64,000 nt of DNA. It comes from Ipomoea triloba. Its lineage: Eukaryota; Streptophyta; Magnoliopsida; Solanales; Convolvulaceae. Below, piece after piece: positions 10,997 through 60,740 of this stretch; position 1 is the stretch's first letter; the number at the start of each line of letters is the position of its first letter. The notes beneath the pieces were generated by a model that did no database searches, was not told the origin of the DNA, and saw only the letters and a program-made list of their open reading frames with translations. Where the stretch lies: NCBI RefSeq assembly GCF_003576645.1, contig NC_044917.1, positions 14,509,077 to 14,573,076 on the forward strand, written 5' to 3'. The translations under genes were made by a program, and so were the position numbers.

Positions 10997-13900
10997 ATGG
11001 CAGAGGAGAGTGGGAAGAGTTTTGCTAGGAGGGATCGGTTGTTGGAAATAGAGTCGCAGGTTCAAAAGTGGTGGGAAGAGGGGGATGTTTTCAGAGCTGA
11101 GCCCAAAGATTCTCGTCCCTTGCCGGGTGAAAAGTTTTTTGGGAACTTTCCTTTCCCGTATATGAATGGCTATCTTCATCTGGGACATGCATTTTCATTG
11201 TCTAAACTTGAGTTTGCTGCTGCTTATCATAGATTGAGAGGTGAAAACGTGCTTTTGCCCTTTGGGTTTCACTGCACTGGGATGCCTATTAAGGCTTCTG
11301 CTGATAAGCTCTCGAATGAGATTGAGATGTTTGGAAATCCGCCTCAGTTTCCGGTTGCAGAAGAAGAGGAAACTGATGAGCAAGAAGTGAAGGCGGAGGG
11401 TGAGGGTGTAGGGAATCAGACTGCTCCAGGTGGAAAATTTAAAGGGAAGAAGTCAAAGGCTGTTGCAAAGACTGGTGCTGCTAAGTTTCAGTGGGAAATC
11501 ATGAGAAGCTACGGTTTGTCTGATGAGGAGATTGCTAAATTTACTAATCCGTATCACTGGCTGACATTTTTCCCACCGCTTGCTGTGGAGGATTTGAAGG
11601 CTTTTGGGTTGGGTTGTGATTGGCGGCGCTCATTTATTACTACTGATATGAATCCATATTTTGATTCCTTTGTGCGGTGGCAAGTGAGGAAATTAAAATC
11701 CTTGGGAAAGATTGTTAAGGACCTCAGGTTTGCCATATATTCTCCCAAAGATGGGCAGCCGTGTGCTGATCATGATCGGGCTTCAGGGGAAGGAGTTATT
11801 CCCCAGGAGTATACTCTTATCAAGATGGAGGTTGTTGCACCTTTTCCATCAAAGATGAGTGTTTTAGAAGGTAGAAAAGTGTACCTTGCTGCTGCTACAT
11901 TAAGGCCAGAGACAATGTATGGACAAACAAATGCTTGGGTACTGCCAGATGGGAAGTACGGTGCATATGAGATTAATGATACAGATGTTTTTATCTTGAC
12001 TTATAGGGCTGCTCGTAATCTGGCTTACCAGAGGCTGTCACGCAAACCCGAGGAGCCAACTTGTTTGGTTGAATTGACTGGTCAAGATCTTATTGGGTTG
12101 CCCCTGCGCTCTCCTTTAGCTTTTAATGAAGTTATATACACTTTGCCGATGCTATCAGTTCTTACTGAAAAGGGTACTGGTATTGTAACCAGTGTTCCCA
12201 GTGATTCTCCTGATGATTACATGGCCCTTCATGACTTGAAGTCTAAGCCAGCCTTCAGGGCCAAATTTGGTGTCAAGGATGAATGGGTCTTGCCCTTTGA
12301 GATTGTGCCTATCATCAATCACCCAGATTTTGGAGACAAATCAGCCGAGAGAATTTGCATAGAGAAAAAAATTAAAAGCCAGAATGAACGAGATAAGCTT
12401 GATGAGGCTAAGAAAGTAATCTACAAAGGTGGTTTTTATGAGGGAACCATGGTTGTTGGAGAGTTCTCTGGAATGAAGGTCCAAGATGCTAAAAGTTTGA
12501 TCAGAAGCAAGCTTCTGGAGATGAATCAAGCTGTAGTGTACAGTGAGCCTGAGAAGAAGGTCATTTCAAGATCTGGGGATGAGTGTGTCGTGGCTTTGAC
12601 TGATCAGTGGTATATCATCTATGGGGAACCAGAATGGCGGAATGCTGCAGAGGAGTGCTTATCCGGTATGAATCTCTATTCTGATGAGTCCCGTCATGGT
12701 TTTGAGCACACTTTGAGCTGGCTTAACCAGTGGGCTTGCTCACGCAATTTTGGGCTTGGTTCTCGCATTCCTTGGGATGATCAGTTTTTGGTTGAATCCT
12801 TGTCTGATTCCACACTTTATATGGCATATTATACTGTATGCCATCATTTGCAGAAAGGGGATATGTATGGTAGCGACCACTCTTCAGTGAAACCGGAGCA
12901 GTTAACGGATGAAGTTTGGGATTTCTTGTTTTGTGGAGGGCCATATCCTAGTTCTTCTGACATATCTTCTTCTCTCCTTGAGGAGATGAAAAGGGAATTT
13001 GAGTATTGGTATCCATTTGACCTCAGAGTTTCTGGCAAGGATCTTATTCAGAATCATCTTACTTTCTGCATCTACAACCACACTGCCATCTTGCCTAAGC
13101 ACCTTTGGCCACGCGGTTTCAGGTGCAATGGTCATATTATGCTAAACTCTGAGAAGATGTCCAAGTCTACAGGTAATTTCAGGACCCTGAAGCAGGCTAT
13201 TGAAGAGTTCTCAGCAGATGCAACACGATTCTCTCTTGCTGATGCGGGTGACGGAATGGATGATGCAAACTTTGTGTTTGAGACGGCTAATGCTGCTATC
13301 TTACGTCTCACGAAAGAAATCGCATGGATGCAGGAGGTTCTTGCAGCAGAGTCGTCTTTGAGAAGTGGAGTGCCATCCACATATGCTGATCAGGTATTCG
13401 CTAATGAAATGAATATTGCAGTCAAAGCAACAGAGAAGAACTACGGCGAATATATGTTCAGGGAAGCTCTGAAGACAGGTTTCTATGACCTTCAGGCTGC
13501 TAGGGATGAATACAGGCTATCATGTGGGTCCGGGGGCATGAACCGTGATCTATTATGGAAGTTCATGGATGTTCAAACCCGGCTTATTGCTCCAATCTGC
13601 CCTCATTATGCTGAATATGTCTGGAAGGAACTTTTGAAGAAAGATGGGTATTGCATAAAATCTGGGTGGCCAAAAGCCGAGGCACCAAATCTCACCCTCA
13701 AAAAGGCTAACAAATATTTGCAAGATTCAATTGTCTCGATGAGGAAGCTCCTGCAGAAACAGGTTTCTGGATCGAAGAAAGGCAACATAAATGTGAATGC
13801 TCAAAACAAACCCACGGTGGGGTTGATATATGTCAATGAGCAATACGATGGGTGGAAAATGGAGTGTTTGAACATACTCAGGAGGAAATTCGACATGGCC

Positions 13901-14254
13901 TCGCGCACCTTTTCACCCGACAAAGAAATCCTCGCTGAACTACAGCAGAGCTCAATTGCAAAAGAAGGCAATTTCAAGCAAATACAGAAGCTATGTATGC
14001 CATTCCTGAGATTCAAGAAGGATGAAGTTATGGCCGTAGGGGTTCAGGCACTGGATCTAAGACTTCCATTTGGCGAGATTGAGGTCCTCGAGACAAACTC
14101 AGACTTGATCAAAAGACAGCTTGGTCTTGAAAGATTGGAGATTTTGTCTGCTGCAGATCCAACTGCAATTGGAAGAGCCGGTCCTCATGCATCGCTTTTG
14201 AAACAGAATCCTCCATCACCTGGGAATCCAACCGCAATCTTCATCAATGAGTAA
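10997..14254 (+). CDS. LeuRS: Leucyl-tRNA synthetase, cytosolic type
   Basis: A single uninterrupted frame of 1085 codons encodes a class I aminoacyl-tRNA synthetase that joins leucine to tRNA-Leu for cytosolic translation. The ATP-binding HIGH signature is HLGH at residues 61-64 and the KMSKS loop is present exactly at 720-724. The CP1 editing domain that removes mischarged amino acids lies between them: TLRPETMYGQTNAW at 301-314 and GTGIVTSVPSDSPDDY at 393-408 with its conserved Asp. An anticodon-binding region and a eukaryote-specific C-terminal extension follow. A lysine-rich insert (GKFKGKKSKAVAK) sits near residue 145. The length matches the archaeal/eukaryotic cytosolic form (about 1,070-1,100 residues), not the shorter organellar/bacterial form, and no transit peptide is evident. 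The ATG sits in AATAATGGCAG, a good plant start context. The coding region has no intron. Confidence 0.97.
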   Translation: MAEESGKSFARRDRLLEIESQVQKWWEEGDVFRAEPKDSRPLPGEKFFGNFPFPYMNGYLHLGHAFSLSKLEFAAAYHRLRGENVLLPFGFHCTGMPIKASADKLSNEIEMFGNPPQFPVAEEEETDEQEVKAEGEGVGNQTAPGGKFKGKKSKAVAKTGAAKFQWEIMRSYGLSDEEIAKFTNPYHWLTFFPPLAVEDLKAFGLGCDWRRSFITTDMNPYFDSFVRWQVRKLKSLGKIVKDLRFAIYSPKDGQPCADHDRASGEGVIPQEYTLIKMEVVAPFPSKMSVLEGRKVYLAAATLRPETMYGQTNAWVLPDGKYGAYEINDTDVFILTYRAARNLAYQRLSRKPEEPTCLVELTGQDLIGLPLRSPLAFNEVIYTLPMLSVLTEKGTGIVTSVPSDSPDDYMALHDLKSKPAFRAKFGVKDEWVLPFEIVPIINHPDFGDKSAERICIEKKIKSQNERDKLDEAKKVIYKGGFYEGTMVVGEFSGMKVQDAKSLIRSKLLEMNQAVVYSEPEKKVISRSGDECVVALTDQWYIIYGEPEWRNAAEECLSGMNLYSDESRHGFEHTLSWLNQWACSRNFGLGSRIPWDDQFLVESLSDSTLYMAYYTVCHHLQKGDMYGSDHSSVKPEQLTDEVWDFLFCGGPYPSSSDISSSLLEEMKREFEYWYPFDLRVSGKDLIQNHLTFCIYNHTAILPKHLWPRGFRCNGHIMLNSEKMSKSTGNFRTLKQAIEEFSADATRFSLADAGDGMDDANFVFETANAAILRLTKEIAWMQEVLAAESSLRSGVPSTYADQVFANEMNIAVKATEKNYGEYMFREALKTGFYDLQAARDEYRLSCGSGGMNRDLLWKFMDVQTRLIAPICPHYAEYVWKELLKKDGYCIKSGWPKAEAPNLTLKKANKYLQDSIVSMRKLLQKQVSGSKKGNINVNAQNKPTVGLIYVNEQYDGWKMECLNILRRKFDMASRTFSPDKEILAELQQSSIAKEGNFKQIQKLCMPFLRFKKDEVMAVGVQALDLRLPFGEIEVLETNSDLIKRQLGLERLEILSAADPTAIGRAGPHASLLKQNPPSPGNPTAIFINE

Positions 14255-18200: not shown

Positions 18201-19430
18201 GATAGGTGTCAAAGATACCTATAAAAAAGGGGTCTAATTGGGATTTGAATTGTGATGTTTGATGCTTTTTTTGTGGTTAATTTATGGTGCCATGTGCTTT
18301 AATGTGCTAATTCTTGCATAGCTCTATCGCTTGGTGCACTTCTAGATGGTTTTTGGAGGTTTGAACTTAAGAAGTGGACATATGGTTTCAACTGGGAATA
18401 CTTGAAGGAAGAAGTGCGAAAGGGAGCCTGCCCACGACTGGTCCACACTCGGGGACGAGGCATGGGCTAGAAACAGAGAGTCCCACGTTGCCACCCACGA
18501 CCATGGACAACAACGCATTAATGAAAGAATCCACGACCTGTCCACGTGCGTGGAGCGGGAGTGGACGGATCACTTATGGCAAAGCGCGCGGGAATTTAAA
18601 TCGCAAGATTGGAGGCTGAGAGGAGATGATTTCTTTTATCTTATGTTTTAGTTAGTTGATGTTAGAGAGCTCTAGAGAGAGAAATTAGAGAGAAGGAAGA
18701 TCAATTGTGTACATTCACATTGAAGATTTGATCTTGAATTGAAATTCAATTAGGTAATTCTTGCATTGATTGCTTTTAAATTTCATCTTGCATTTACATT
18801 CTATTGTTTTAATTCTCAAATTAGGAATTGAATTAGGGTTTATGCTCCACATGAATATGTGTGGCTAATTAGGTAGGGATTAGATTGGAATTCCTTTAGT
18901 TCTTGCACTCTAGCACTTAATTGATGAAATTGAATTGAGTTAATGCTTCATGATCATCTTTGTTGTATGCATTGGTTTGCTTGATCTTGGTTAATTGGAG
19001 GCCTAAATGAGCTATGATTGTAGGTTGTAGGCTTAGCAAGAAATTGCAAGTGTGCAATAGCCTTGGTGTGTGCAACTCCCGTCCTAAGTCCGAAAAGACT
19101 AGGTCCGGAGGAGGTAGGTAGAAAAGACGTTTGATAAAATGTCCCAACCGAATGAGGAAGTGGAGTCCAAGTTTGACGCAACTTAGTGAAGTGCCTTAAG
19201 CCTCCTTAGAAATCATGGGTTGTTAACTTGACCAAACCGTGAGACTATTGAGTGCAAGGACCGGGAAACCAATCTAATCCTCTTGTTTTCATTGATCTTC
19301 TTTTGCGTATTGCCTTAGCTTGTTAGTCGTTTCCACGATGAACTTTGCTCTCTTTGGTTACCCATTGTCAATGCATCCGTAGTAATCTTGTCCAAAACTC
19401 TCCAATTTGACGTCCTTTCATGTCATAGTT
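18201..19430 (+). mobile_element. Diverged LTR related to the inner element at 26721-34815
   Basis: Begins TGATAGGTGTCAAAGATACC, resembling the LTR start of the inner element (TGATAAGTGCCAAAAATA, read on its own minus strand), with GGGGTC at the same distance. It then has a GC-rich block with CCACG/CGTGG motifs (18420-18565), a stretch of plain leader-like sequence, and a conserved block at about 19080-19185 (TAAGTCCGAAA, GTTTGATAAAATG, CAACCGAATGAGG, GGAGTCCAAGT) matching in order the block in the inner element's LTR. The right end is not clear and no internal genes follow, so it is a solo or truncated LTR. Confidence 0.6.
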
Positions 19431-25594: not shown

Positions 25595-26720
25595 TATTGT
25601 AGAGTGCTTTACCTCGACACTTTTGACAAGTTAGGACTGGATAGAGATATCCTTAGGCTGGTCATGACCCCTTTGGCTGGGTTCACAGGTGATTCAATCG
25701 AGGCTGAAGGTGCTATAAAGTTGTTGGTCGAGTTAGGCACCTGCCCAAAAACTACCATGGTTGAAATGGAATTTGTAGTCGTCCGTCTGGAGTGTTCTCA
25801 CAACGCGATTTTGGGGAGGCCAGGGCTGGAGAACTTAGGAGCCTTAATCTCACTAAAACATCTGTGCATGAAATTCTGAACACCCATGGGAGTAGGAGCG
25901 GTATGAAGTGATCAGAAGATAGCTCATGACTGTTACCTACAGTCTTGCCGCAAGATAGGAAAAGCGGATCTACGGATCCACACCATTACAAAGAAAGATG
26001 ACATGGCGGAGCGGACCTTGGAACGACCTGAACCAGCGGTCGAGTTAGAAGAGATAGAAATTAATCCGACCTTCCCTGAAAGACGAGCAAGGATCGGTAA
26101 GGGTCTATGCGAAGTTGTCAAAGAGTCGGTGGTACGAGTGTTGAGAAAATATAAGAAAATCTTTGCATGGGGACCTAAAGATATCCCCAGGGTGGACCGG
26201 TCCATAATAACTCACCGGTTGGCGGTTGACCCGACTTACCGACCTGTAGTTCAAATGAAGAGACATCTCTTGACAGATCGACGAGAGTTTTTGAAAAAGG
26301 AAATTAATGCATTACTAGCTGCTGGCCATATTCGGGAAGTAAAATATCCTAAATGGTTGGCCAACGTGGTGTTGGTCCCGAAGCCACCGTTGCCAAGGAT
26401 CGACCAGATGGTGGACGAGACAGCGGGATGTGCTTTACTGAGTTTTATGGACGCCTTCCGAGGTTATCATAAAATCTTCATGCACGCACCCGATGAAGAG
26501 AAAACTACTTTCGTGACCCCGGATGGAGTGTACTGCTATCGAGTGATGCCATTCGCCTTGAAGAATTCTGGTGCGACCTATACTAGAATGGTGTTGCAAC
26601 TATTCAAGGACCTGTTGGGAAAGACTATGGCCGCCTACGTTGATGACATGCTCGTGAAAAGTCAAAAGTAGGAAAGTCATGCGGACGACCTTGCTGCTAG
26701 CTTTCAAGTTATGGAGAAAC
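25595..26720 (+). pseudogene. Ty3/gypsy protease and RT fragment (level 2), first half
   Basis: The frame opens inside the protease-downstream region, YLDTFDKLGLDRDILRLV then MTPLAGFTGDS and HNAILGRPGLENLGA (25604-25879); the catalytic DTG lies upstream and is absent. The RT at 26003-26720 has VDRSIITHRLAVDPTYRPV, GCALLSFMDAFRGYHKIF and the catalytic YVDD at 26636-26647 (AAYVDDMLVKSQ). Coding breaks after HADDLAASFQVMEK at 26720, where the LTR element is inserted, and resumes at 34816. No 5' LTR or gag precedes it, so it is 5' truncated. It lies inside the CACTA. Confidence 0.85.
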
Positions 26721-28091
26721 TGATGTTGTCAGTATGTGGTGAGGTGAATGTGGTAATGAAAGGTGTTAAAACGAAGAGTCAAGACTCCCCGTGTGTCGTG
26801 TCTCTCAAGGATGACAAATTGGAGCGAATTAGTGTTGGCATTTAGGAGGTTAAAAGACAAGAGTTGCAAGGATTACTAAGGAACACTTGAGTCATAGATT
26901 TGGGGGTTGTAAGGGTGTATTTTAACTAAACAAACTGAAAAGAACAAGGAGGTGTGTAACTTAGTTAGTCCAAATGATTGATTATCCAAAGGTAATGTGG
27001 AAATGAGTTTCGGGAATGAACACGGGAGTCACGGTATCAATACCAAGTGACGTCACACTTGGACTCTCAATCCTCATTCGGTTGAGGCATTTTATCGAAC
27101 ACCTTGCCTACCACTCCTCTCGGACCACTTCCTTTCGGACTAAGGGCGGAGATGTGGGTGAGTTGGACTCGTGAGAGGCCGCTATCACGCACACACTCAC
27201 TTTCCTAGAGTCTACTATCTATCCCGGCCGGAAATAGGAGCAAAGCATGAAGAACTTCAACCACACAAGACTAAACCCACTTCATTATTTTCACATTCAT
27301 ATGACAAAATTCAAGCATCAATCATAGGATCTAACATGGGGCACACACACCCCTCAACTAATTTACTCAAGCATTATCAAATCAAAGATTAAACAAAGCA
27401 AAATAACCAAATCAATAGATTAAAGTTGCAATCTTTAAAGAACAAAAGTTTTAGCAACATACCTATATAGGGATCAATGGAGCTACTCCATCTTCCTTTC
27501 ATCCTTCATCTTGCTTCTTTAGTCTATGGAAATTCTATCTATATAATCTACTCTAAAGAAAAGGAAAAGGATTTCCGCCAAAGGGGAGAAAACTCAAAGA
27601 ACTCTATCTAAAGGGAATTGGGACTCTTCTGATAAACCTACAAAGGCCATATATATAGCCTCCGAAATCTCGCCTTAATTATTTCCGCGCTGTGTCGCGT
27701 CCACGCGCGTCTCCACGCGCGTCACCACGCGTGTGAGCGTGCGTGGGAGCATTTCAGTACGCAACCACGCGTGTGGGCGTGCGTGGTGAAATTTGCTTCT
27801 GTTGTCTTCTTCTATGTTGTAGCTCTCGATGATACGGTTCCATAGCCACCTGCCTTGTCTCATTCGGACATTCCTAGCTCTAGTTACGTCCGTTTTACTG
27901 AAGTGTCGCCGGAATGCCTTGCGAAATTTAAGATTTGTGCAAATTATATTGAAACACACATGATTAGTCCCTAGACCTATATGCAATGAAATTACCCTAT
28001 CTTAGTATACTTTGAGGCCTAATGGACATCTAACGTAGCATATTTTTCACCTAAATGACCCCAAAAACACGGCTATTTTTGGCACTTATCA
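26721..28091 (-). repeat. 3' LTR of level-3 element (complete, 1371 bp)
   Basis: On its own strand it starts TGATAAGTGCCAAAAATA and ends CATACTGACAACATCA. It contains a TATA box (CTATATATATGG on the minus strand, plus coordinates about 27648-27662), a cluster of CCACGCGTG-type palindromes at 27695-27785 upstream of it, and a conserved block at about 27045-27150. Confidence 0.9.
27690..27790 (-). promoter_or_regulatory. CCACGCGTG palindrome cluster in LTR
   Basis: Several overlapping self-complementary units, such as CCACGCGCGT, CACCACGCGTGTG and CCACGCGTGTGGGCGTGCGTGG-like repeats, alternate here; the same cluster is at 29045-29135. Similar motifs recur inside the element at 31355-31445 and in the related LTR at 18420-18565. 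They can form hairpins in DNA or RNA. Function is unknown. Confidence 0.7.
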
Positions 28092-28156
28092 AAGTTTCCA
28101 CACTTTAACTTTGCTTGTCCTCAAGCAATTCACAATTAAATGCTAATCATTTAAGN

Positions 28157-29437
28157 AAAGACAAGAGTTGCAAGGATTACTAAGGAACACTTGAGTCATA
28201 GATTTGGGGGTTGTAAGGGTGTATTTTAACTAAACAAACTGAAAAGAACAAGGAGGTGTGTAACTTAGTTAGTCCAAATGATTGATTATCCAAAGGTAAT
28301 GTGGAAATGAGTTTTGGGAATGAACACGGGAGTCACGGTATCAATACCAAGTGACGTCACACTTGGACTCTCAATCCTCATTCGGTTGAGGCATTTTATC
28401 GAACACCTTGCCTACCACTCCTCTCGGACCACTTCCTTTCGGACTAAGGGCGGAGATGTGGGTGAGTTGGACTCGTGAGAGGCCGCTATCACGCACACAC
28501 TCACTTTCCTAGAGTCTACTATCTATCCCGGCCGGAAATAGGAGCAAAGCATGAAGAACTTCAACCACACAAGACGGAAATAGGAGCAAAGCATGAAGAA
28601 CTTCAACCACACAAGACTAAACCCACTTCATTATTTTCACATTCATATGACAAAATTCAAGCATCAATCATAGGATCTAACATGGGGCACACACACCCCT
28701 CAACTAATTTACTCAAGCATTATCAAATCAAAGATTAAACAAAGCAAAATAACCAAATCAATAGATTAAAGTTGCAATCTTTAAAGAACAAAAGTTTTAG
28801 CAACATACCTATATAGGGATCAATGGAGCTACTCCATCTTCCTTTCATCCTTCATCTTGCTTCTTTAGTCTATGGAAATTCTATCTATATAATCTACTCT
28901 AAAGAAAAGGAAAAGGATTTCCGCCAAAGGGGAGAAAACTCAAAGAACTCTATCTAAAGGGAATTGGGACTCTTCTGATAAACCTACAAAGGCCATATAT
29001 ATAGCCTCCGAAATCTCGCCTTAATTATTTCCGCGCTGTGTCGCGTCCACGCGCGTCTCCACGCGCGTCACCACGCGTGTGAGCGTGCGTGGGAGCATTT
29101 CAGTACGCAACCACGCGTGTGGGCGTGCGTGGTGAAATTTGCTTCTGTTGTCTTCTTCTATGTTGTAGCTCTCGATGATACGGTTCCATAGCCACCTGCC
29201 TTGTCTCATTCGGACATTCCTAGCTCTAGTTACGTCCGTTTTACTGAAGTGTCGCCGGAATGCCTTGCGAAATTTAAGATTTGTGCAAATTATATTGAAA
29301 CACACATGATTAGTCCCTAGACCTATATGCAATGAAATTACCCTATCTTAGTATACTTTGAGGCCTAATGGACATCTAACGTAGCATATTTTTCACCTAA
29401 ATGACCCCAAAAACACGGCTATTTTTGGCACTTATCA
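28157..29437 (-). repeat. Duplicate partial LTR copy next to a single N
   Basis: 28157-29501 is almost identical to 26853-28155. Differences seen: one C/T change (CGGGAATG/TGGGAATG) and a 42-bp tandem duplication at about 28535-28617 containing GAAATAGGAGCAAAGCATG. It lacks the first 132 bases of the LTR, and the N at 28156 marks the junction. An assembly artefact is likely; unequal recombination is the alternative. Confidence 0.9.
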
Positions 29438-29718
29438 AAGTTTCCACACTTTAACTTTGCTTGTCCTCAAGCAATTCACAATTAAATGCTAATCATTTAA
29501 GTGCCAAAGGTAGCTGTGTTACTCAATTAATTAACCGGTCTATTAACTCTAGGGTGCAGCCAACGGAGTGGGTGAAATTCTGCACATTATCTACACAGGA
29601 TGGTAACCACATGCCATACACTCTAAGAAAATACAAACGAAGCAAAACCCCTAAGGTCTCATTTGGACAAAGCAACACACACTCCATACAACCAAGCATG
29701 CAATCCAAGTTAGATTCA

Positions 29719-29968
29719 CCTTAGATTTTACAAAGGCCTTTAAGCCGAGCCCCCTAGTGGGAACGATGTGCACACCTCAACCAATACTTTTCAACTAAAT
29801 GCCAAAGCCCAACGCGTAAAATAAGTGAGGGTAGGGACATGGACCTTAGATTTTACAAAGGCCTTTAAGCCGAGCCCCCTAGTGGGAACGATGTGCACAC
29901 CTCAACCAATACTTTTCAACTAAACGCCAAAGCCCAACGCGTAAAATAAGTGAGGGTAGGGACATGGA
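29719..29968 (+). repeat. 125-bp tandem duplication
   Basis: The unit CCTTAGATTTTACAAAGG...GGGTAGGGACATGGA occurs at 29719-29843 and 29844-29968, nearly identical. Confidence 0.9.
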
Positions 29969-30290
29969 CCGCTCATCGCCATGGCTTGGGCGATCTCTCT
30001 TTCTTCTCAACCCCCTCGGATCTCATTCTCGGGCGACCCGACTTCACATGGATCTCCATGCTTTTTCGAAGGTCAGTGCAATGGGGTGGATCACCTCCTC
30101 TCAATTTTCTCATCTCCTAGAATCTCTTTGGGACAACCGACTTCATGTGGATCTCCACGCTTGTTTGAAGACGGTGCAATGGTTGCCCCATATCCTAGCA
30201 AGATGGCTATCCTCGGATCTTATCTCTAGGAGTGACCAAACATTTTTCTTAAGCCTTTTTTTCAAACTTTCACCATTTCAACCCCTCATG

Positions 30291-30430
30291 CCTTTTACTT
30301 GGGAATCGGGATTTACTCACATTTCTCACCAACCTTTTACTTGGGAATCGGGATTTACTCACATTTCTCACCAAAGGCTCACCTTTTAATCGGGATTTAC
30401 TCACATTTCTCACCAAAGGCTCACCTTTTT
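30291..30430 (+). repeat. Three tandem units with AATCGGGATTTACTCACA
   Basis: Units starting CCTTTTA at 30291, 30333 and 30382 share AATCGGGATTTACTCACA and TTTCTCACCAA. Two short runs of CGACTTCA(C/T)(A/G)TGGATCTCCA at about 30039 and 30129 lie just upstream. Confidence 0.85.
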
Positions 30431-31700
30431 CCCCATGCCCTACCAAGATTAGTTCAATTCCGGGCTTCGCTTTCCATTATCTTTCTAAAATTAAGGGGTG
30501 CACACTCCCACTTCGAGATATCATTGACTCAGGTCTAAGCAAAATAAGAGGTGAATATCATACAAGCATACAAGAATTTAAAACTCATTTGGTCTAAGCA
30601 ATTGCTTGGTAAAGAAGGAGTACTTCCCATGGATATTCAAAGAGAAAATTTTTTTATTTTTGGCATATGATTAACATTCTCCCTAGATAATGTGAACAAT
30701 GACACACTCTCCAAAGATCAAACACACCCATAAGACAAGACCAATATATCAATCAAGCAACAAACAATATAAGCATAACGTGTGTCCTTTCCACACTTTA
30801 AAACAAACATCGTCCTCGATGTTGCCATGAAGATCAAATGGAACAAGGGAGCACAGTCATTCAAAATCAATCAAACCCTTTCCACACTTTAGAAGTGTTT
30901 TCGGGGGTGTAGGGTGTCAACAATATAGCATTTTGTGGGTGCGAAATAGTATGTGTTTATCAAGTATGCAAGGAACACGTATAACAATTCAATTTCCACA
31001 CTTTAGAATTGAAAAATGAGGCATGAAAAGGTAAAAGAGATAAGAGGTTTACAACCAAGTAAGCATCCCTTCATTTCCACACTTTAAGCTTCTAACATCT
31101 CTTTTGCCTTCGTTCTCCAAGCTACATGAAACAATGTTAGCACAAGAAGACAACCAATTGACGTGCAATGGCCTGACGGAAGTTCATTTATTCATAATGA
31201 AAACATAAATCCTAAAACAAGGTAAGTAACTAAAACAAAAACAATAAGAAAGATATGTAAATCAAGATAGGAAATGATTCTTGGCACGTCCAAACCTTGG
31301 AGACTCATAAAAATTGGATGAAAATGAACATGATGCTCAACAAGTTGTCAGGACCTGTCCACGTGGACACCACGCGTGTGTGTCCATGTGGATCAGCACT
31401 AGAAAGGTTCCACGCCTGTCACCACGCGTGTGGGCAGGCGTGGACAACAGTGCTGATCACTTTCTTCTTCTCCCGGCTTTTGCCTTCCGCTTTTGATCCG
31501 GTTTAGCTCAATTCGACATGGCTTAGCACCAAAATCACTTGCAATGTTAGCTCAAGCATGCTATTCTAAAAAGAAAATTGCTAATAACGAAGGAAAAGAA
31601 AAAGTAAACAAGAAATAAAGTTCTAACATCTAAGGATAACGTTGGGATTACCTCCCAAGTGCGCCATGGTTTAACGTCTCCTGGCCAGACGTGGTGTGCT

Positions 31701-33605
31701 CTATCCTTCGAAGCACACTGATTTTGGGACCTTACCAAGCGTCCCATGAACCTTTGTTTCAAGGTATGCCCCAAGATGTAGGACATCCTTGAATTCCCAA
31801 CCAAATAAAGGAAGAATAAATTGCATTATTGGAAGAATATTGGCCTCGAACACCCTCCTTAACTCTTCTAGGATGGTGTGCACTTCCTTTATTTCCTTCT
31901 TCTCTCTTTCACCCCAAAAGATCTTTTCATTTGTAGCATAAGGTTGGTACCATATCTCCTCACTCCCATTTTCATTTTCAAATGTAGCCAAGTCTCTCCA
32001 CTCAACTTCATCAACTATGTTGAAAGTGAATATCCCTTCATTTTCTATCATATCTTCCTCACAATCCTTCTTCTCATTTTCCCACTCAACTTTCTCCATT
32101 ATGTCGAAAATGAAAACCTCTCCATATTCCACCATCTCTTCCTCACATTCTCTCATCTCATTTCCCCGTTCAATTACACTCAAAGACTCACCCTCATCCT
32201 CACAAGAGTAAAATGAAGCATCATCCCCCTCACTTATCAATTCATTTTCACCCAAGTCAAAGGATTCATCTTCCAAAAATTTAAAACAATCATATTCATC
32301 ATCAAACAAAAGAGAATCCTTGCAATCATCAATCAATATATCACACGTTTCTATGAAATCATCCTCCCGAAAATTAAAGCAATCATAATCACATGTAATG
32401 GAAATATTAATGTAAAGGGAGTCTTCCTTATGAGGAACACAATTATCATTATCAAACGAATCAACATTTCCACACTTGTTAATAGAATCATCATTAATAA
32501 AGCCTATGGAATCATCCTCCCGAAAATAAAAACGAGCAGTATCACAAGCATATAGATCATTGTTGCATTTCAAAGGGGAGTCATCCACACAAGTGTCAAA
32601 AGTGTTTTCAATAAGAGCACAAGGATTTTCAAGAATATTAATGCAAGAAGGATTAAGAATTTTACCACATGTCGGCTCTTCATCTTCCCACACTATCTCA
32701 ATGTTCTCATCTTCGCTCTCCATCTCTACCTCCTTTTGATTTTCCAATTCGAAAATTGGAACTTCTTCAAGAACCGGGGCATAACAATCTACTATCTCTT
32801 CAACAGTCACCTCTTTTCTATCATTTTGCTCTTTTTCAACCTCTTGTACAATCCTTGGATTGGCTTCCAAAATTAGGATATCATCTACAATGGAATGACT
32901 AAACTGTAATGAGCTTGTCTTCATGAGCTCCTCCATCATAGATAGCATTTTCGTCTCAACTTCTTCCAATGGAAGTCCTTCTTTCCGGAGGGTAGCGAGA
33001 TAATCTTTCAATTCGCTCTTGATTTCGGCTCTTAAATTGGTCGTGTCCTCTTTGGCCATCCTCATGAATGCTTCTATTTTTTCTTTAAGAATCTCAATTT
33101 CGTTCGTGGACGGTGGGATATAATCACAAGGATTGGGTGGGGTAAAATATGGATTAGAAGGTGGTGTTTCAAAGAAATGTGTAGTATTGTTTTCTTTATG
33201 AAATTGTGATGGAGGTGGGTAATGGGTGTTTAGGTGGGAATTGGAGAATAAATTTGACTCGTGAGTATAGCTTGGGTCGATTTGTTTCATCATTTGGACA
33301 AGCTTACTCTCAATATTTTGAAATATATCTTTAGAGCTTAACGAGTCATCTTCTTGATATGGTGGGATTGGGTGTGTATATGGTTGTGGGAGATGGCTAT
33401 GTATATAAGATGGGTAAAAATTTGAAGGTGGTAAGTAGTGGTGTGGAAATGGGTAAGGATTTGGAGGTGGGTAGTGATATGTTGGTGGAGGGTAAACATA
33501 GGTAGAATGGGGGTAATAGGGATATGTTTGCGGTGTAGTATAGTTCAAAGGATTTCCCTCATGGTGTGGGTAACCATGGGGATGCATATAAGCACGCATT
33601 GGCAA
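31701..33605 (-). CDS. Large proline/tyrosine-rich, acidic protein of non-autonomous LTR element
   Basis: A single frame of 634 codons, the only long one in the level-3 element and placed just behind its primer-binding site, where gag normally begins. Residues 1-125 are rich in Pro, Tyr and His (many YPP/HYPPP-like steps). Residues about 165-235 (EIEILKEKIEAFMRMAKED onward) look helical and coiled-coil-like. Residues 250-560 are strongly acidic, with recurrent REDDSI/REDDFI units and a 28-residue repeat (ECEEEMVEYGEVFIFDIMEK; DCEEDMIENEGIFTFNIVDE). The C terminus is hydrophobic (MQFILPLFGWEFKDVLHL). No zinc knuckle, protease, RT or integrase is seen, nor a secretion signal. It may be a diverged gag-like structural protein; I do not recognise it. 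The frame is intact despite the surrounding decay. Confidence 0.75.
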   Translation of the reverse strand: MPMRAYMHPHGYPHHEGNPLNYTTPQTYPYYPHSTYVYPPPTYHYPPPNPYPFPHHYLPPSNFYPSYIHSHLPQPYTHPIPPYQEDDSLSSKDIFQNIESKLVQMMKQIDPSYTHESNLFSNSHLNTHYPPPSQFHKENNTTHFFETPPSNPYFTPPNPCDYIPPSTNEIEILKEKIEAFMRMAKEDTTNLRAEIKSELKDYLATLRKEGLPLEEVETKMLSMMEELMKTSSLQFSHSIVDDILILEANPRIVQEVEKEQNDRKEVTVEEIVDCYAPVLEEVPIFELENQKEVEMESEDENIEIVWEDEEPTCGKILNPSCINILENPCALIENTFDTCVDDSPLKCNNDLYACDTARFYFREDDSIGFINDDSINKCGNVDSFDNDNCVPHKEDSLYINISITCDYDCFNFREDDFIETCDILIDDCKDSLLFDDEYDCFKFLEDESFDLGENELISEGDDASFYSCEDEGESLSVIERGNEMRECEEEMVEYGEVFIFDIMEKVEWENEKKDCEEDMIENEGIFTFNIVDEVEWRDLATFENENGSEEIWYQPYATNEKIFWGEREKKEIKEVHTILEELRRVFEANILPIMQFILPLFGWEFKDVLHLGAYLETKVHGTLGKVPKSVCFEG

Positions 33606-33835
33606 GCGTTCAAATGATTTTCAACAAAAATTTCCTGCACAAAGCTTATAGCCAACAACAAATCTTTGCAACTAGAAGTAGTTGCAAGTGAGCAACAAAA
33701 TATTCAATACAAATAAGCTCAGTTCTTCAATCAAGTAACCAAAAATAAGAAAATAAAACAAATAAAAAGAAAGCAATTCAAGAACTCTTAAAAATCAACT
33801 TAAAAAATGTCAACACAATTCAAAACCGTTTGCCA

Positions 33836-33853
33836 TCCCCGGCAGCGGCGCCA
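33836..33853 (-). other. Primer-binding site (tRNA-Asp type)
   Basis: On the minus strand TGGCGCCGCTGCCGGGGA starts three bases after the 5' LTR end. It is complementary, with one mismatch, to the 3' end of plant tRNA-Asp, a common primer for plant Ty3/gypsy elements. This fixes the element's orientation. Confidence 0.85.
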
Positions 33854-33856
33854 TTT

Positions 33857-34815
33857 TGATGTTGTGAGTATGTGATGAGGTGAATGTGGTAATGAAAGGT
33901 GTTAAAATGAAGAGTCAAGACTCCCCGTGTGTTGTGTCTCTCAAGGATGACAAATTGGAGCGAATTAGTGTTGGCATTTAGGAGGTTAAAAGACAAGAGT
34001 TGCAAGGATTACTAAGGAACACTTGAGTCATAGATTTGGGGGTTGTAAGGGTGTATTTTAACTAAACAAACTGAAAAGAACAAGGAGGTGTGTAACTTAG
34101 TTAGTCCAAATGATTGATTATCCAAAGGTAATGTGGAAATGAGTTTTGGGAATGAACACGGGAGTCACGGTATCAATACCAAGTGACGTCACACTTGGAC
34201 TCTCAATCCTCATTCGGTTGAGGCATTTTATCGAACACCTTGCCTACCACTCCTCTCGGACCACTTCCTTTCGGACTAAGGGCGGAGATGTGGGTGAGTT
34301 GGACTCGTGAGAGGCCGCTATCACGCACACACTCACTTTCCTAGAGTCTACTATCTATCCCGGCCGGAAATAGGAGCAAAGCATGAAGAACTTCAACCAC
34401 ACAAGACAAAACCCACTTCACCATTTTCACATTCATATGACAAAATTCAAGCATCAATCATAGGATCTAACATGGGGCACACACACCCCTCAACTAATTT
34501 ACTCAAGCATTATCAAATCAAAGATTAAACAAAGCAAAATAACCAAATCAATAGATTAAAGTTGCCTAGTCACCTGCCTTGCCTCATTCGGACATTCCTA
34601 GCTCCGGTTACGTCGGTTTTACTGAAGTGTCGCCGGAATGCCCAGCGAAATTTAAGATTTGTGCAAATTATATTGAAACACACATGATTAGTCCTTAGAC
34701 CTATATGCAATGAAATTACCCTATCTTAGTATACTTTTAGGCCTAATGGACATCTAACGTAGCATATTTCACACCTAAATGACCCTAAAAACACGGCTAC
34801 TTTTGGCACTTATCA
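33857..34815 (-). repeat. 5' LTR of level-3 element, 412-bp internal deletion
   Basis: 959 bp, against 1371 bp for the 3' LTR; the difference is one gap equivalent to about 27430-27841. The lost segment holds the TATA box and the CCACGCGTG cluster, so this upstream LTR lacks its core promoter. Scattered base differences from the 3' LTR show some age. Confidence 0.9.
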
Positions 34816-35972
34816 GAAACATAATCTAAGGTTAAAGCTAAGAAGTGTGCCTTCGCGGTGCACGGAGGGAAGTTCTTAGGTTACATAGTAACTCGACGAG
34901 GGATCGAGCCAAACCCTAAAAAGATTAGGGTTGTCCTGGACATGCAGCCGCCTAAAACTATCAAGGAGTTGCAACGTTTAACTGGTCGGTTGGCGGCATT
35001 GAGCCAATTTTTGTCCAAATCAGCCGACCAGTCCCCACCCTTCTTCGACACCTTGAAGACTAGGGACGAGGTAGTAGCCACATCACTTTGGCCGACCTCA
35101 GTCAGAGTTGGAACAGAAACTCGGTCCATCCCAGCAACGGAATCCACGTTGGCAGATGACTCCAGGTATTTGAGTCATACTTCGTGTAACTCGAGAAAGT
35201 AAGGGACTTAGGAGTGAAAACTTTCCTGTATGAAGAAAAACAATGCATTTCCTCGGGCTGTGCTTTGCGTAAATCGGGAAAATGAGGGTCTAGATGATGG
35301 GGGATAGATCAAAGATTAAGGCTCGGTGTTAGAAGCTTGGCACGGATGAAAGAGAAGACATAAGCGGAGAGAAAGAAGGTTTGAAGGGAGGTGTGATGGC
35401 ACGATGGAGGCCGACCGACAATCAGTTGGTCTATCGGAGGGTCTGTGAGAAGGTGACAAGTCAGTTTAAGATCTTAGACTCCGAGTGATTGAACATAGCT
35501 ATTGAAACAGTTAATTACCATGGAGGAAAGTCGAGCTAAAGAAGTAAGAAAGAGATGAGTCGGACCAAACCGACCTAGAAGAGGCCGAGGTAAGAGAGGC
35601 GACACAAGAAGGGCGGTGCACGATAGGCGGTTATGAAAGTTTCCTAAAGAGTTTGGCGGCGGAAGGCGAGAGATATGGAAGGAAGATTGAGATAAGTTAG
35701 GGAAGTGCCTAAAATGTAATAAGGAAAGAGTTCCTAAAGTAGTTTAGAAGTTTCCTAAGGGAGAAATTCCTCCTAACTTGTATAAATAGGGGTTCTAGGC
35801 CTTGAGAAAGGCACAAGCAGTCTAGCCCACTTATAAGCAACTCATTGTACTCAAAAGGCAATTCGTAATCCAAAGAGGGCCGAAAGGTTACTCTAGTTTT
35901 CCGATAGTGTTAGTCGATTTTCCGGTAGTGTTGGCCTGTCGTTCGACCATTCCGTGGGAGATAAAACCAACA
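34816..35972 (+). pseudogene. Ty3/gypsy RT end plus 3' LTR (level 2), second half
   Basis: Coding resumes as KHNLRLKAKKCAFAVHGGKF and GYIVTRRGIEPNPKKI, then TIKELQRLTGRLAALSQFLS, PPFFDTLK (to about 35065), the RT palm end and thumb of the element begun at 25595. RNase H and integrase are missing: similarity ends and LTR-like sequence follows, with TATA box GTATAAATAGGGG at about 35787 and a right end near ...GATAAAACCAACA at 35972. So there is a large internal deletion between RT and the 3' LTR. Confidence 0.75.
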
Positions 35973-56444: not shown

Positions 56445-59400
56445 TCAAGCTGGAGCATAAATATCAACCATGCCCAGCTTGTTACATATATATTCAACCC
56501 GACTCTTACCCAGACTCTTGGTAAACACATCAGCTAATTGATCAGCACTTCGAACATGCACTGTCGATATCAACCCTTGTTGCACCTTCTCTCGTATGAA
56601 ATGGCAATCCACCTCAATATGCTTGGTTCGTTCGTGGAAGACAGGATTATTAGTAATGTGTATAGCAGCACGATTATCACACCATAAACTCACTGGTAGC
56701 TGCACCTCTACACCAATTTCCCTCAAAATATTGTGTACCCAAACAATCTCACTCGTGACGTGAGCCATGGCCCTGTACTTAGACTCTGCACTAGACCGGG
56801 CTACGACACTCTGTTTCTTGCTCTTCCATGAGACCAAGTTGCCTCCCACGAACACACAATAACCTGTCATTGATCTTCTGTCACTCGGAGACCCAGCCCA
56901 ATCAGCATCAGAAAACGCCTCAACACGAGTGTGCCCATAACCTGCATACAAGACCCCTTTCCCGGGAGCACCCTTCAAATATTTAACGATCCGGATAGCT
57001 GCCTCCCAATGAGTTTGTGTAGGTTCACTCATAAACTGACTCACCACGCTAACAGGAAACGCAATGTCAGGACGAGTAATAGTGAGATAATTAAGCTTTC
57101 CCACTAACCTCCTATACCTCTCTGGATTGTCAAACGCCTCTCCTTCTCCAGCTACAAGTTTGGCACCAGGATCCATGGCAGTATCACACGGCTTCGCCCC
57201 CAGCATACCAGTGTCATCAAGCAGGTCCAACACATACTTTCTTTGTGAAAGAAAAATGCCTTTCTTGGATCGGGAAACTTCAATACCCAGAAAGTATTTT
57301 AGTATACCCAAATCCTTAGTATGAAACTCGTCCTTGAGAAAGGACTTAAGAGCATCAATTCCTCTAGCATCGCTCCCTGTGATTACTATATCATCCACAT
57401 ATACAATTAACAAAACACAACCATAACTCGTGTGCTTATAAAATACCGTATGATCACAAGCACTCCTCTGCATACCAAACTTGATGACCGCACTACTAAA
57501 CCTTCCAAACCACGCGCGCGGAGATTGCTTCAAACCATATAAGGACTTCTTCAGTTTGCACACCTTCCCTGACTCCCCCTGAGCAACGAACCCAGGTGGT
57601 TGCTCCATATAAACTTCCTCGGACAAATCACCATGTAAAAATGCATTCTTCACATCTAGTTGATACAAAGGCCAATGATTAACGGCAGCTAATGAAATGA
57701 AAATCCGTACAGAAGTCAATTTGGCTACGGGGGAAAACGTCTCTGTATAGTCAACACCATACATTTGTGCATACCCTTTAGAAACTAGCCGTGCTTTCAA
57801 TCTAGCAACAGAACCATCCGGGTTCATTTTGACTACATAAACCCACTTACACCCAATAGCAACTTTACCAGTGGAGAGATCAACAAGATCCCAGGTTCGA
57901 TTCTCCTCAAGAGCGCCCATCTCCTCTTCCATAGCACGCCGCCAACCATCATGAGACAGAGCCTCTCTTAACGACTCGGGAACAACTACAGACTCCAACT
58001 GAGACACAAAGACACGTGAAGAGGGTGACAGATCATTGTAAGACACAAATGAGGAAATAGGATGAACACACCGACGTTTACCTTTTCGAAGAACAACATG
58101 AAGATCTGTTGACGGAGATTGCGGTTAAGTAGAGCTGGCTGGTGGGCGAGACGACACCTTTCGCACAACCTTCTTCGGCCGCCTGTTATATACTTGAGTA
58201 ATGGGGGGCCTAGGTATAGACTCAACCCAGGAGGAAGGAACAGTAACAGTATATGTGAGAAACTCATTATCCTCTATTGACACAGTGACACAATCTGGAT
58301 GATCGAAGACCGCCCCACTATATATGGTATCCTCAAAGAACGTAACATCGGCAGACACTAAATACCTCTTTAGCTCAGGAGAATAACAACCGGCAGACAC
58401 TAAATACCTCTTTAGCTCAGGAGAATAACAACGATATCCTTTTTGAGTAGGAGAATATCCTAAGAATATACAACGATATCCTTTTTGAGTAGGAGAATAT
58501 CCTAAGAATATACTTTTAAGGGCTCTTGGGTCGAGTTTACCGTTCTGGGGGCGAATATCTTGAACAAAACAAGTGCAGCCAAACACTTTAGGAGACAAGT
58601 GAAACAAAGGACTAGAGGGATACACGAGATGGCACGGAACCTGTGCTCGGAGGACACTAGACGGCAGTCGATTAATCAAGAAGGAAGCTGTATGGACAGC
58701 ATCCGACCAAAATATTTTAGGGACTTTCATCTGAAATAACAGGGCTCGAGCGACCTCCAACAGATGGCGATTCTTTCGCTCTGCGACACCATTCTGTTGA
58801 GGCCTACCCACACAAGAGGACTGATGTATCATTCCATTCTGACTCATATAAGTTGAGAAGGGGCTAGAGAAATATTCAAGAGCATTATCACTACGCAAAA
58901 CTTGAACACTTTTATTAAACTGAGTTTTGATCATAACACATAAGTTACAGAAAATAGTAAATAACTCATCTCTAGACTTCATTAAATATAACCAAGTATG
59001 TCTCGAAAAATCATCTACAAAGGTTACGAAGTACCTAAACCCCGATTTCGAAGACACACGACATGGACCCCACACATCCGTGTGAACCAATTGAAATAAC
59101 GACTCCACCCTATTATTGACTCTAGGTAAATAAGTTCCCCGACAGTGTTTGGCAAGTTCGCACGACTCACACTGTAAAACAGATAAAGACTCTAAATGTG
59201 GACACAATTTCTTCAACGTAGGTAGAGACGGATGACCATACCGACAATGTAATTGAAAAGGAGTTGTGTTTCCCAGCAGACTGACAGAAGCAACCCCACG
59301 AGGAACCAGTTGATCCAGCACATACAACCCACCAGTCTCCTTCCCTTTACCAATAATCTCCTTCGTCAACAGATCCTAGAACAAACAATAACCAGGGAAA

Positions 59401-60740
59401 AACAACACACAACAATTTAGAGTTCGAGTGATCTGGCTTATAGAGAGTAAATTGAAAGGGAACTTTGGAAGATACAAAACAGAAGAAAGAGATAAACCCG
59501 GAGTAGCAATTGCATTACCTTTACCCAAGACAGTGGTGGAAGAACCATCTGCCAGGGTAACTGTAGGACCACAATTAAAAGGAAAATATGTGGAAAAGAG
59601 ACTCGGATTACCTGACATATGGTCACTAGCTCCTGAGTCAATGACCCATTTCCGAGATGAAGAAGAAGAAACACAGGCGACAGGATTACCTGTTTGGACG
59701 AACGTAGCCGACTGAGACGACACAGAGTCATGATTAGTTGGAGGCGGCGAGGAAGACACCTTCAGCTGGTTGAACAAAGCTAATTCCTCATCAGTCACCA
59801 CTATTGTATGTCCTTCTGGTTTTATGACAGAATTAGCAAACCTTTGTGGTCGGACCAGTTTCGGGCATTGACTGCGCAGGTGACCGGGATCTCTACAAGC
59901 ATAACAAAATGGTTTAGGACATTGATTACGTAAATGATTCGGGTCTCCGCAGTAATAACATACCCTCGGTCCTCCGCGTCCTCCACCACGTCCTCCTCGA
60001 CCACGCCCCCGGAATCGGCCACCTCGATTATCGCTGCCATTCCCTTGTGACAGCAGTGCTTTCTCCTCAACCATATTATCCTGCGACAAGAAAACGTGTC
60101 TTTCTGACACGTCTCCACTACTAATGTTACCTGATGCATTCTGGACCCTCGCAAAGACTTGATCCAGTGATTATAACTCTTTGTCCCCCAACAACTGCGA
60201 CTGGAGAACATCATACTCCTTACCTAACCCTGAGATCCAACTAAACACAAGCAGTTGGTCATGTTGTTTCTTCATTTGAGCTACGTCATTTGAGATGGGC
60301 ATAGCAGCGCACAAAGCATCACTCGCATTCTTGAACTCATAATAATAGTCTCTAATGTCTCGCCCATTTCGAGAAGGACGATAGACATTTTGAGACAATT
60401 GATACAACCTCCTTAGGTTATATGTCCCACTAAACTATTTATGTACTAGATCCCATACTTCTTTCACAGTTGTACAATGCTTCATTGACAAAATTATTTT
60501 CTTGTCAATACAATTAATGATTCGAGAGAAAATAGCTTTATCATCACTCTTCCACTGACTAACTGTGTCAGGAGATCCAGTTGGACAGACTTCTGTTAAG
60601 TGTCCATCCTTTCCCATGCCACCCAAATTAACTTTAATTAAAAACTCCCATTCACCAAAATTAGACCCATCAGGTGCAAGTACCACATCAATTAACTTAG
60701 ATGGGGTTGACACCACTGTTATAGTCCTCCCTTCAGCCAT
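56445..60740 (-). pseudogene. Copia gag-pol polyprotein with four in-frame stops
   Basis: One frame runs from the ATG at 60740 to 56445, interrupted only at 60435-60437 (TAG), 60171-60173 (TAA), 59376-59378 (TAG) and 58125-58127 (TAA), with no frameshift. Gag ends in an RG-rich stretch and two zinc knuckles, CYYCGDPNHLRNQC and CYACRDPGHLRSQC. Protease has WVIDSGASDHM. Integrase has the catalytic triad in VHTDVWGP, LRSDNALEYF and QQNGVAERKN with DD35E spacing. RT has YVDD in LLIVYVDDIVITG. RNase H has AFSDADWAGSPSDRRS, and the end is CNKLGMVDIYAPA. Each stop fits a glutamine codon changed by one C-to-T step. Two small in-frame tandem duplications lie at 58347-58510. Confidence 0.95.
58347..58512 (-). 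repeat. Two adjacent tandem duplications in copia integrase region
   Basis: GGCAGACACTAAATACCTCT... (about 45 bp) is doubled at 58349-58436 and ACGATATCCTTTTTGAGTAG... (about 42 bp) is doubled at 58430-58512. The protein thereby repeats YSPELKRYLVSA and IFLGYSPTQKGYRC, with the frame kept. Confidence 0.85.

Follow-up and report, generated by a model that had tools for sequence, protein, structure and literature searches.

A pol-less, probably Athila-like LTR retrotransposon of Ipomoea triloba with a conserved protein not recognisable as Gag

How plant retrotransposons without pol persist, and why some of them keep a protein, are questions raised by an LTR element of Ipomoea triloba that carries a single long frame. 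The element lies in a stretch of 64,000 nucleotides of contig NC_044917.1 (hereafter the window, whose own numbering is used throughout). In Arabidopsis, some Athila families lack pol and have a gag ORF, with or without env, and the available part of the work on them (Marco and Marin 2008, PMC2410132) reports purifying selection and argues for mobilisation in trans. ORFs under selection in elements without pol are already known; what is new in the present case is a protein that is not Gag-like.

The frame is located on the minus strand (Table 1). The 634 intact codons (31701-33605) reported in the initial annotation of the window are counted from a TTG; from the ATG at 33599, which aligns with the start of a full-length relative (P0031), the frame encodes 632 amino acids. 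In 300 dinucleotide-shuffled versions of the internal region the longest open run was 220 codons, against 639 from stop to stop in the actual frame, which is far beyond chance and is real. It constitutes the sole long frame between the two LTRs of a minus-strand retrotransposon, where it occupies the position of gag. The LTR pair with its matching inverted ends (TGAT at the start and ATCA at the finish in element orientation) and its target-site duplication is as expected of a non-autonomous LTR retrotransposon, and so are the primer binding site and the polypurine tract. The primer site (33853-33833) agrees at 19 of 21 positions with what we take to be the 3' end of plant tRNA-Asp, the runner-up site in the window reaching 16/21. 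The LTRs, the duplication, the tRNA-Asp type of the primer site and the single frame in gag position, all named in the initial annotation, were thus seen again. The 12-mer of the polypurine tract occurs six times without mismatch in the window, the assembly duplicate included, against 0.01 expected, and its further copies at 30788, 30879, 30993 and 31074 fall in the 3' non-coding region, where they may possibly act as extra plus-strand primer sites.

Table 1. Features of the element and of its insertion site in the window
Feature	Position	Strand	Remark
Left part of interrupted Ty3-type RT gene (target)	25907..26720	+	RVT_1 match
Target-site duplication GAAAC, 3' side of element	26716..26720	.	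identical 5 bp at 34816-34820
3' LTR, 1371 bp	26721..28091	-	TGAT...ATCA ends; three TATAWA sites
Polypurine-tract region, first contig's version	28092..28155	-	12-mer at 28095-28106
Scaffold joint, lone N	28156	.	downstream bases repeat upstream ones
3' LTR read again from other contig	28157..29437	-	assembly overlap, no third LTR
Polypurine-tract region adjoining 3' LTR	29438..29501	-	AAAGTGTGGAAA at 29441-29452
3' non-coding region	29502..31700	-	four more 12-mer copies; 125-bp and 42-bp tandem repeats
Strongly structured RNA stretch (predicted)	31340..31475	-	z -4.07, 0/200 shuffles as good
632-aa frame, stop included	31701..33599	-	ATG 33599, stop 31701
Last 32 codons, near-invariant C-terminus FKDV-HL...GTLGKVPKSVCFEG	31704..31799	-	overlaps predicted RNA hairpins
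Primer binding site, tRNA-Asp type	33833..33853	-	3 nt inside LTR end
5' LTR, 959 bp	33857..34815	-	without 412 bp that 3' LTR has
Target-site duplication GAAAC, 5' side of element	34816..34820	.	identical 5 bp at 26716-26720
Right part of interrupted RT gene	34821..35202	+	by eye; without own Pfam match

The absence of pol, likewise stated at the outset, was borne out within the frames scanned, as expected of a non-autonomous LTR retrotransposon. The scan took in the main frame and 20 of the 21 further frames that reach 45 aa in the region 29502-31700 (all but 31640-31792 on the plus strand), and neither pol nor gag families were found in them; one sub-threshold Fer4 match appeared among the further frames (E 0.034). 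The insertion site is the RT gene of a different Ty3-type element. When the two flanks are rejoined, the left RT frame runs a few residues past the junction and RT-like sequence continues in another frame; the target gene itself is decayed, with a stop and a frame change.

The 3' side of the element seems to contain a tandem LTR. After the single N at 28156, the 1345 bp of 28157-29501 repeat 26853-28155, and the two readings of the 3' LTR differ at one of 1239 aligned bases and by one extra 42-bp tandem unit. Because of the N at the joint and the near-identity of both readings, a genuine tandem or third LTR was rejected: the overlapping ends of two contigs (about 1345 bp) have been left in the assembly as a duplication. 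The comparison of the 5' LTR with the 3' LTR reveals a mosaic. The first 250 bp contain 14 differences (5.6%), 412 bp are missing at about base 249 of the 5' LTR, and the following 709 bp contain 8 differences (1.1%), a pattern suggesting that a second LTR type contributed by conversion or recombination. The three TATAWA sites present in the 3' LTR all fall inside the stretch missing from the 5' LTR, which itself has none. Owing to the absence of this TATA region, the sequenced copy probably lacks its normal promoter and is probably not an active one. A 110-bp stretch elsewhere in the window (19079-19187), 77% like the LTR of the element and in opposite orientation, is perhaps the remnant of a related LTR.

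At the protein level, the composition given in the initial annotation was found to be correct. The head of 158 residues is 43% Pro, Tyr and His, the middle is predicted to be helical, and the acidic part (residues 241-562, 322 residues) contains 96 D and E against 21 K and R, together with 35 F, W or Y; an in-frame internal repeat of 84 bp (28 codons) is present in the frame. AlphaFold predicts helices at residues 165-206 and 211-231, with pLDDT, averaged over 10-residue blocks, falling from 91 to 72 by about residue 230. The mean pLDDT is only 50.3 for the whole protein and 45.7 for a separate model of the C-terminal 153 residues, and in view of these low values only the coil is regarded as structure.

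The initial annotation had also described the protein as unlike ordinary gag and free of a zinc knuckle, naming a close match to a known autonomous gag as what would speak against it, and no such match appeared in the profile searches. The window protein matched no Pfam or NCBIfam family at its cut-off and no PDB chain below E 0.4, and the best PDB hit of the family profile reached E 0.14. None of the 38 aligned family members matched a gag or zinc-finger family at E 0.1 or contained the strict CX2CX4HX4C knuckle. A looser Cys/His spacing occurs in 5/38 members, the window protein not being among them. Weak single-member Pfam matches (13 families, best E 0.0049, at most two of the 38 members each) were set aside because they are inconsistent across members.

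These searches bear on another explanation, that of an ordinary but fast-evolving Gag in a TR-GAG-like element or an Athila element without pol. Its capsid core would have diverged beyond what Pfam recognises, and the Pro/Tyr head, the coil and the acidic tail would be the usual Gag spacers. The order of head, coil and acidic part may resemble what follows the capsid in plant Gag proteins. The gag of Athila is of about the same size and is placed just inside the 5' LTR (Table 1 of PMC2410132), the same position as the frame, and in one family, according to the part of that paper available, it measures 1896 nt, which equals the frame without its stop. Against such a Gag stand the 38 members without any capsid, gag or zinc-knuckle family, and the AlphaFold model which, at low confidence, predicts two long paired helices and nothing that is confidently a capsid-like bundle. 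A comparison by hhalign with a fragment of the other Ty3 element of the window, read as gag, returned a probability of 0.1%, a weak control because this fragment has no Pfam match itself. Taken together, we consider an ordinary Gag to be unlikely.

Relatives of the protein were found in several kinds of record. A first search gave two partial relatives, both gene models of Ipomoea triloba fused to unrelated genes, and a search with a three-row alignment gave 39 proteins at E<=1, which included those two, 26 jgi or lgn records and 11 labelled as enterobacterial (P0006, P0012-P0014, P0021, P0022, P0028, P0034, P0035, P0037 and P0039). The latter are probably plant DNA that contaminates bacterial assemblies. 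Scans of viral and prokaryote contigs with alignment A3 yielded 32 and 29 pattern matches, respectively, and no relative. A search limited to residues 155-330 gave no match, a result that is not used here since it missed, without explanation, the known relative P0002, which overlaps this region. The alignment of the family (A2) consists of 37 relatives plus the window protein, P0001 and P0002 being left out because of their fusion to unrelated genes.

The 21 rows that contain enough sequence were placed in a tree, which separates two deep clades with a support of 1.000; four rows make up the second clade. One of these four, P0031 (499 aa), taken from an open-frame database, is a full-length protein with 46% identity to the window protein, with which it agrees in its start and end positions. 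The family shares a layout formed by a Pro/Tyr-rich head, a helical coil of about 65 residues, an acidic middle of variable length that stays acidic in the eight rows measured, a mildly hydrophobic stretch and a near-invariant end of 30 residues. Conservation is uneven along it: identity to the four clade-2 members compared amounts to 0.56-0.61 in the coil, 0.35-0.42 in the acidic part and 0.19-0.31 in residues 563-600, and it rises to 0.81-0.88 in the last 32 residues. Counted from FKD, the conserved end has exactly 30 residues in 13 of 14 members and 29 in the remaining one; these 14 of the 38 were picked for an FKD within the last 60 residues, so that their number is no evidence in itself. 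The most hydrophobic 15-residue window upstream of the conserved end has a Kyte-Doolittle value of 0.93 to 2.14 in these 14 members, and in 13 of them it is the strongest of the whole sequence, some of the sequences being short fragments.

Whether the protein is under selection cannot be read from the sequenced copy. The insertion, judged by its LTRs, is young, and at 8 changes per 709 bp about 0.4 stops would be expected since it took place (scaled by hand from the simulation described below). This youth alone can explain the intact frame, which is no sign of selection in a single copy, and the older, broken neighbouring elements with which it had been contrasted are uninformative in this respect. 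The suspicion of selection voiced in the initial annotation stands on other grounds, as the frame has been kept between two deep clades. When two lineages were simulated under neutrality to an amino acid identity of about 0.43-0.52, at least 10 stops accumulated in two 632-codon frames together, and none of 200 runs was free of stops at each of six steps. Moreover, one-step replacements are on the whole more conservative than would be expected from the codon table (0.592 vs 0.507, p 0.0024, n=282, 28 relatives). By region, the acidic part is the sole significant one (p 0.0014), with p 0.06 for the coil, 0.55 for residues 563-600 and 0.34 for the C-terminus, where only 8 replacements are available. 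This test dropped columns with a local identity < 0.6 and left out nine diverged relatives, namely P0018, P0038 and seven taken as clade 2 (four from the 21-row tree and three by similarity). The same layout and an almost unchanged tail in distant relatives indicate that the protein probably matters to these elements.

Part of what the initial annotation had named as contrary to selection, a dN/dS near 1 across copies together with frequent loss of the frame, is nevertheless seen. The internal 28-codon repeat, which by eye is doubled only in the alignment row of the window copy, has a dN/dS of 0.90, a value obtained from just 3 synonymous and 16 non-synonymous changes. Four contig sizes (2933, 3848, 3876 and 1087) are each shared by two or three separate protein pieces from the same kind of source, which are read as broken frames, their origin from the same contig being presumed from the shared size; a fifth shared size (998), which joins pieces of unlike origin from two sources, was disregarded. 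Several pieces of relatives also finish in foreign-looking sequence. The pattern would fit a family that persists through a small number of source copies under selection and leaves many dead ones. It has equally to be weighed whether the frame is a passive leftover of a non-autonomous element, intact through youth, with relatives that merely share descent. The 8 differences in 709 bp outside the mosaic part of the LTR, the few stops expected since insertion and the broken-looking frames among the relatives are all in keeping with such a leftover. A frame, start, stop and layout common to a clade about 45% identical, and a conservation that varies along the protein, argue the opposite and render it quite improbable.

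The sharpness of the conserved end raises another alternative, in which the end of the frame is a translated cis-acting RNA signal (a packaging, dimerisation or splice region) and the remaining protein is weakly constrained and maybe non-essential. Three neighbouring hairpins are predicted at the end of the frame (211 nt, z -2.45; 2/200 shuffles as good), a stronger structured stretch follows just downstream (Table 1), and of the 85 internal-region windows, those with the two most negative z values (-5.3 and -4.6) are found at the frame end or just downstream of it. The edge of conservation is sharp at FKD, and the dN/dS of the internal repeat can be counted on the same side. Other windows are also low, such as 33207-33356 in the head region (z -4.06), and the coil is conserved too. 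If the RNA end alone mattered, loss of the frame would be expected from the neutral simulation. The near-invariant C-terminus could reflect an RNA signal, a reading ranked below that of a protein motif because several amino acid changes within the motif seem, by hand inspection, to hit predicted paired bases. Overall, an RNA signal as the main cause of the conservation is distinctly unlikely. The downstream stretch is predicted to form a very stable double hairpin with CACGCGTGG-like motifs, and similar stretches were noticed by eye in the 3' LTR near 27700. A further motif, located behind the stop, resembles a sequence of other Athila elements; a text search of the literature gave no match to it, and the resemblance is given no weight here.

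The composition of the acidic part suggests yet another role, that of a regulator instead of a particle protein, for example an activation or anti-silencing factor, acidic and rich in aromatic residues, that acts on the LTR of the element. In support of such a factor, 96 D/E and 35 F/W/Y are concentrated in 322 residues, and this part is acidic in the seven relatives measured, which represent both clades. Acidic disordered spacers are nonetheless common, and no DNA-binding family was detected above the cut-off in the searches with the protein and the family, which makes a regulator very improbable.

On balance, we lean towards a non-autonomous Athila-like LTR element that is moved in trans and carries a selected protein which replaced or outran Gag. 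The placement as Athila-like would follow from the primer site and from the ORF in gag position, the element itself having no RT. The element retains its cis signals (the LTR ends, the tRNA-Asp-type primer site, the polypurine tract and the target duplication) and encodes one protein in gag position; according to the preferred reading, reverse transcriptase and integrase would be supplied in trans by an autonomous relative. The coil may allow the protein to self-associate or to join the Gag particle of the partner, and the near-invariant end may be a docking site for Gag, Pol or the RNA of the element. The protein would in this manner help the RNA of the element into the particle, performing Gag-like work either as a replacement of Gag or as a Gag that has diverged past recognition. 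A bolder and somewhat unlikely version holds that a pol-less lineage gave up Gag and took on an unrelated acidic protein with a coiled coil, which it has retained in two deep clades or more, the 30-residue end hijacking the Gag, Pol or RNA of the partner, so that these elements would be true satellites with a dedicated helper-recruiting protein. A conserved family that is not recognisably Gag and has one extremely conserved end predicts a binding partner, and it would also explain unnamed proteins that are fused into Ipomoea gene models or labelled as bacterial.

LARD elements are regarded as non-coding, and by this definition, which we take to be the accepted one, the long frame sets the window element apart from them. 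Like LARD elements (named in the available part of PMC2851119), it is a large LTR element without pol. It resembles the pol-less Athila families in its LTRs, its single gag-position ORF (reported there to be under purifying selection), the absence of pol, the presumed mobilisation in trans and the age of the family, but as far as the available text goes their ORF is a gag comparable across autonomous and non-autonomous families, whereas the window element has no recognisable gag (PMC2410132). The same holds for TR-GAG, one element of which, the Copia-type ATCOPIA63, has been seen transposing in Arabidopsis ddm1: it is also a non-autonomous LTR element with one intact ORF, but the accessible portion of the source defines it by its Gag domain, and none was detected here (PMC8704663). 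With Calypso, Diaspora and Athila the window element shares a tRNA-Asp primer site near the LTR end, at 5 bp there and 3 here, in contrast to Diaspora having a gag with a zinc finger as well as pol, and its relatives an env-like ORF in addition, in the part of the report at hand (PMC1142308). Accordingly, the primer site close to the LTR end agrees with the Athila lineage, a recognisable gag is missing, and the single long ORF of TR-GAG is present without the Gag domain; because of the missing gag, and since there is no RT by which to place it, the element is filed neither as TR-GAG nor as a member of Athila. Additional ORFs of plant LTR elements also encode conserved proteins of unknown role besides gag-pol, but in the sections available these are mostly found between pol and the 3' LTR of gag-pol elements, unlike the present frame, which stands alone behind the 5' LTR (PMC7264820, PMC11963269). 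The literature covered, which leaves most subscription journals outside and was available in part, does not name any element of this type, in which the one ORF is not a Gag.

Two other features of the window can be mentioned. A long frame at 10997-14254 with leucyl-tRNA synthetase domains (class I synthetase and RagD-binding domain) is probably a host gene or a retrocopy, and a Copia-type element occupies 56445-60110, with RT, integrase and a zinc knuckle distributed across three frames.
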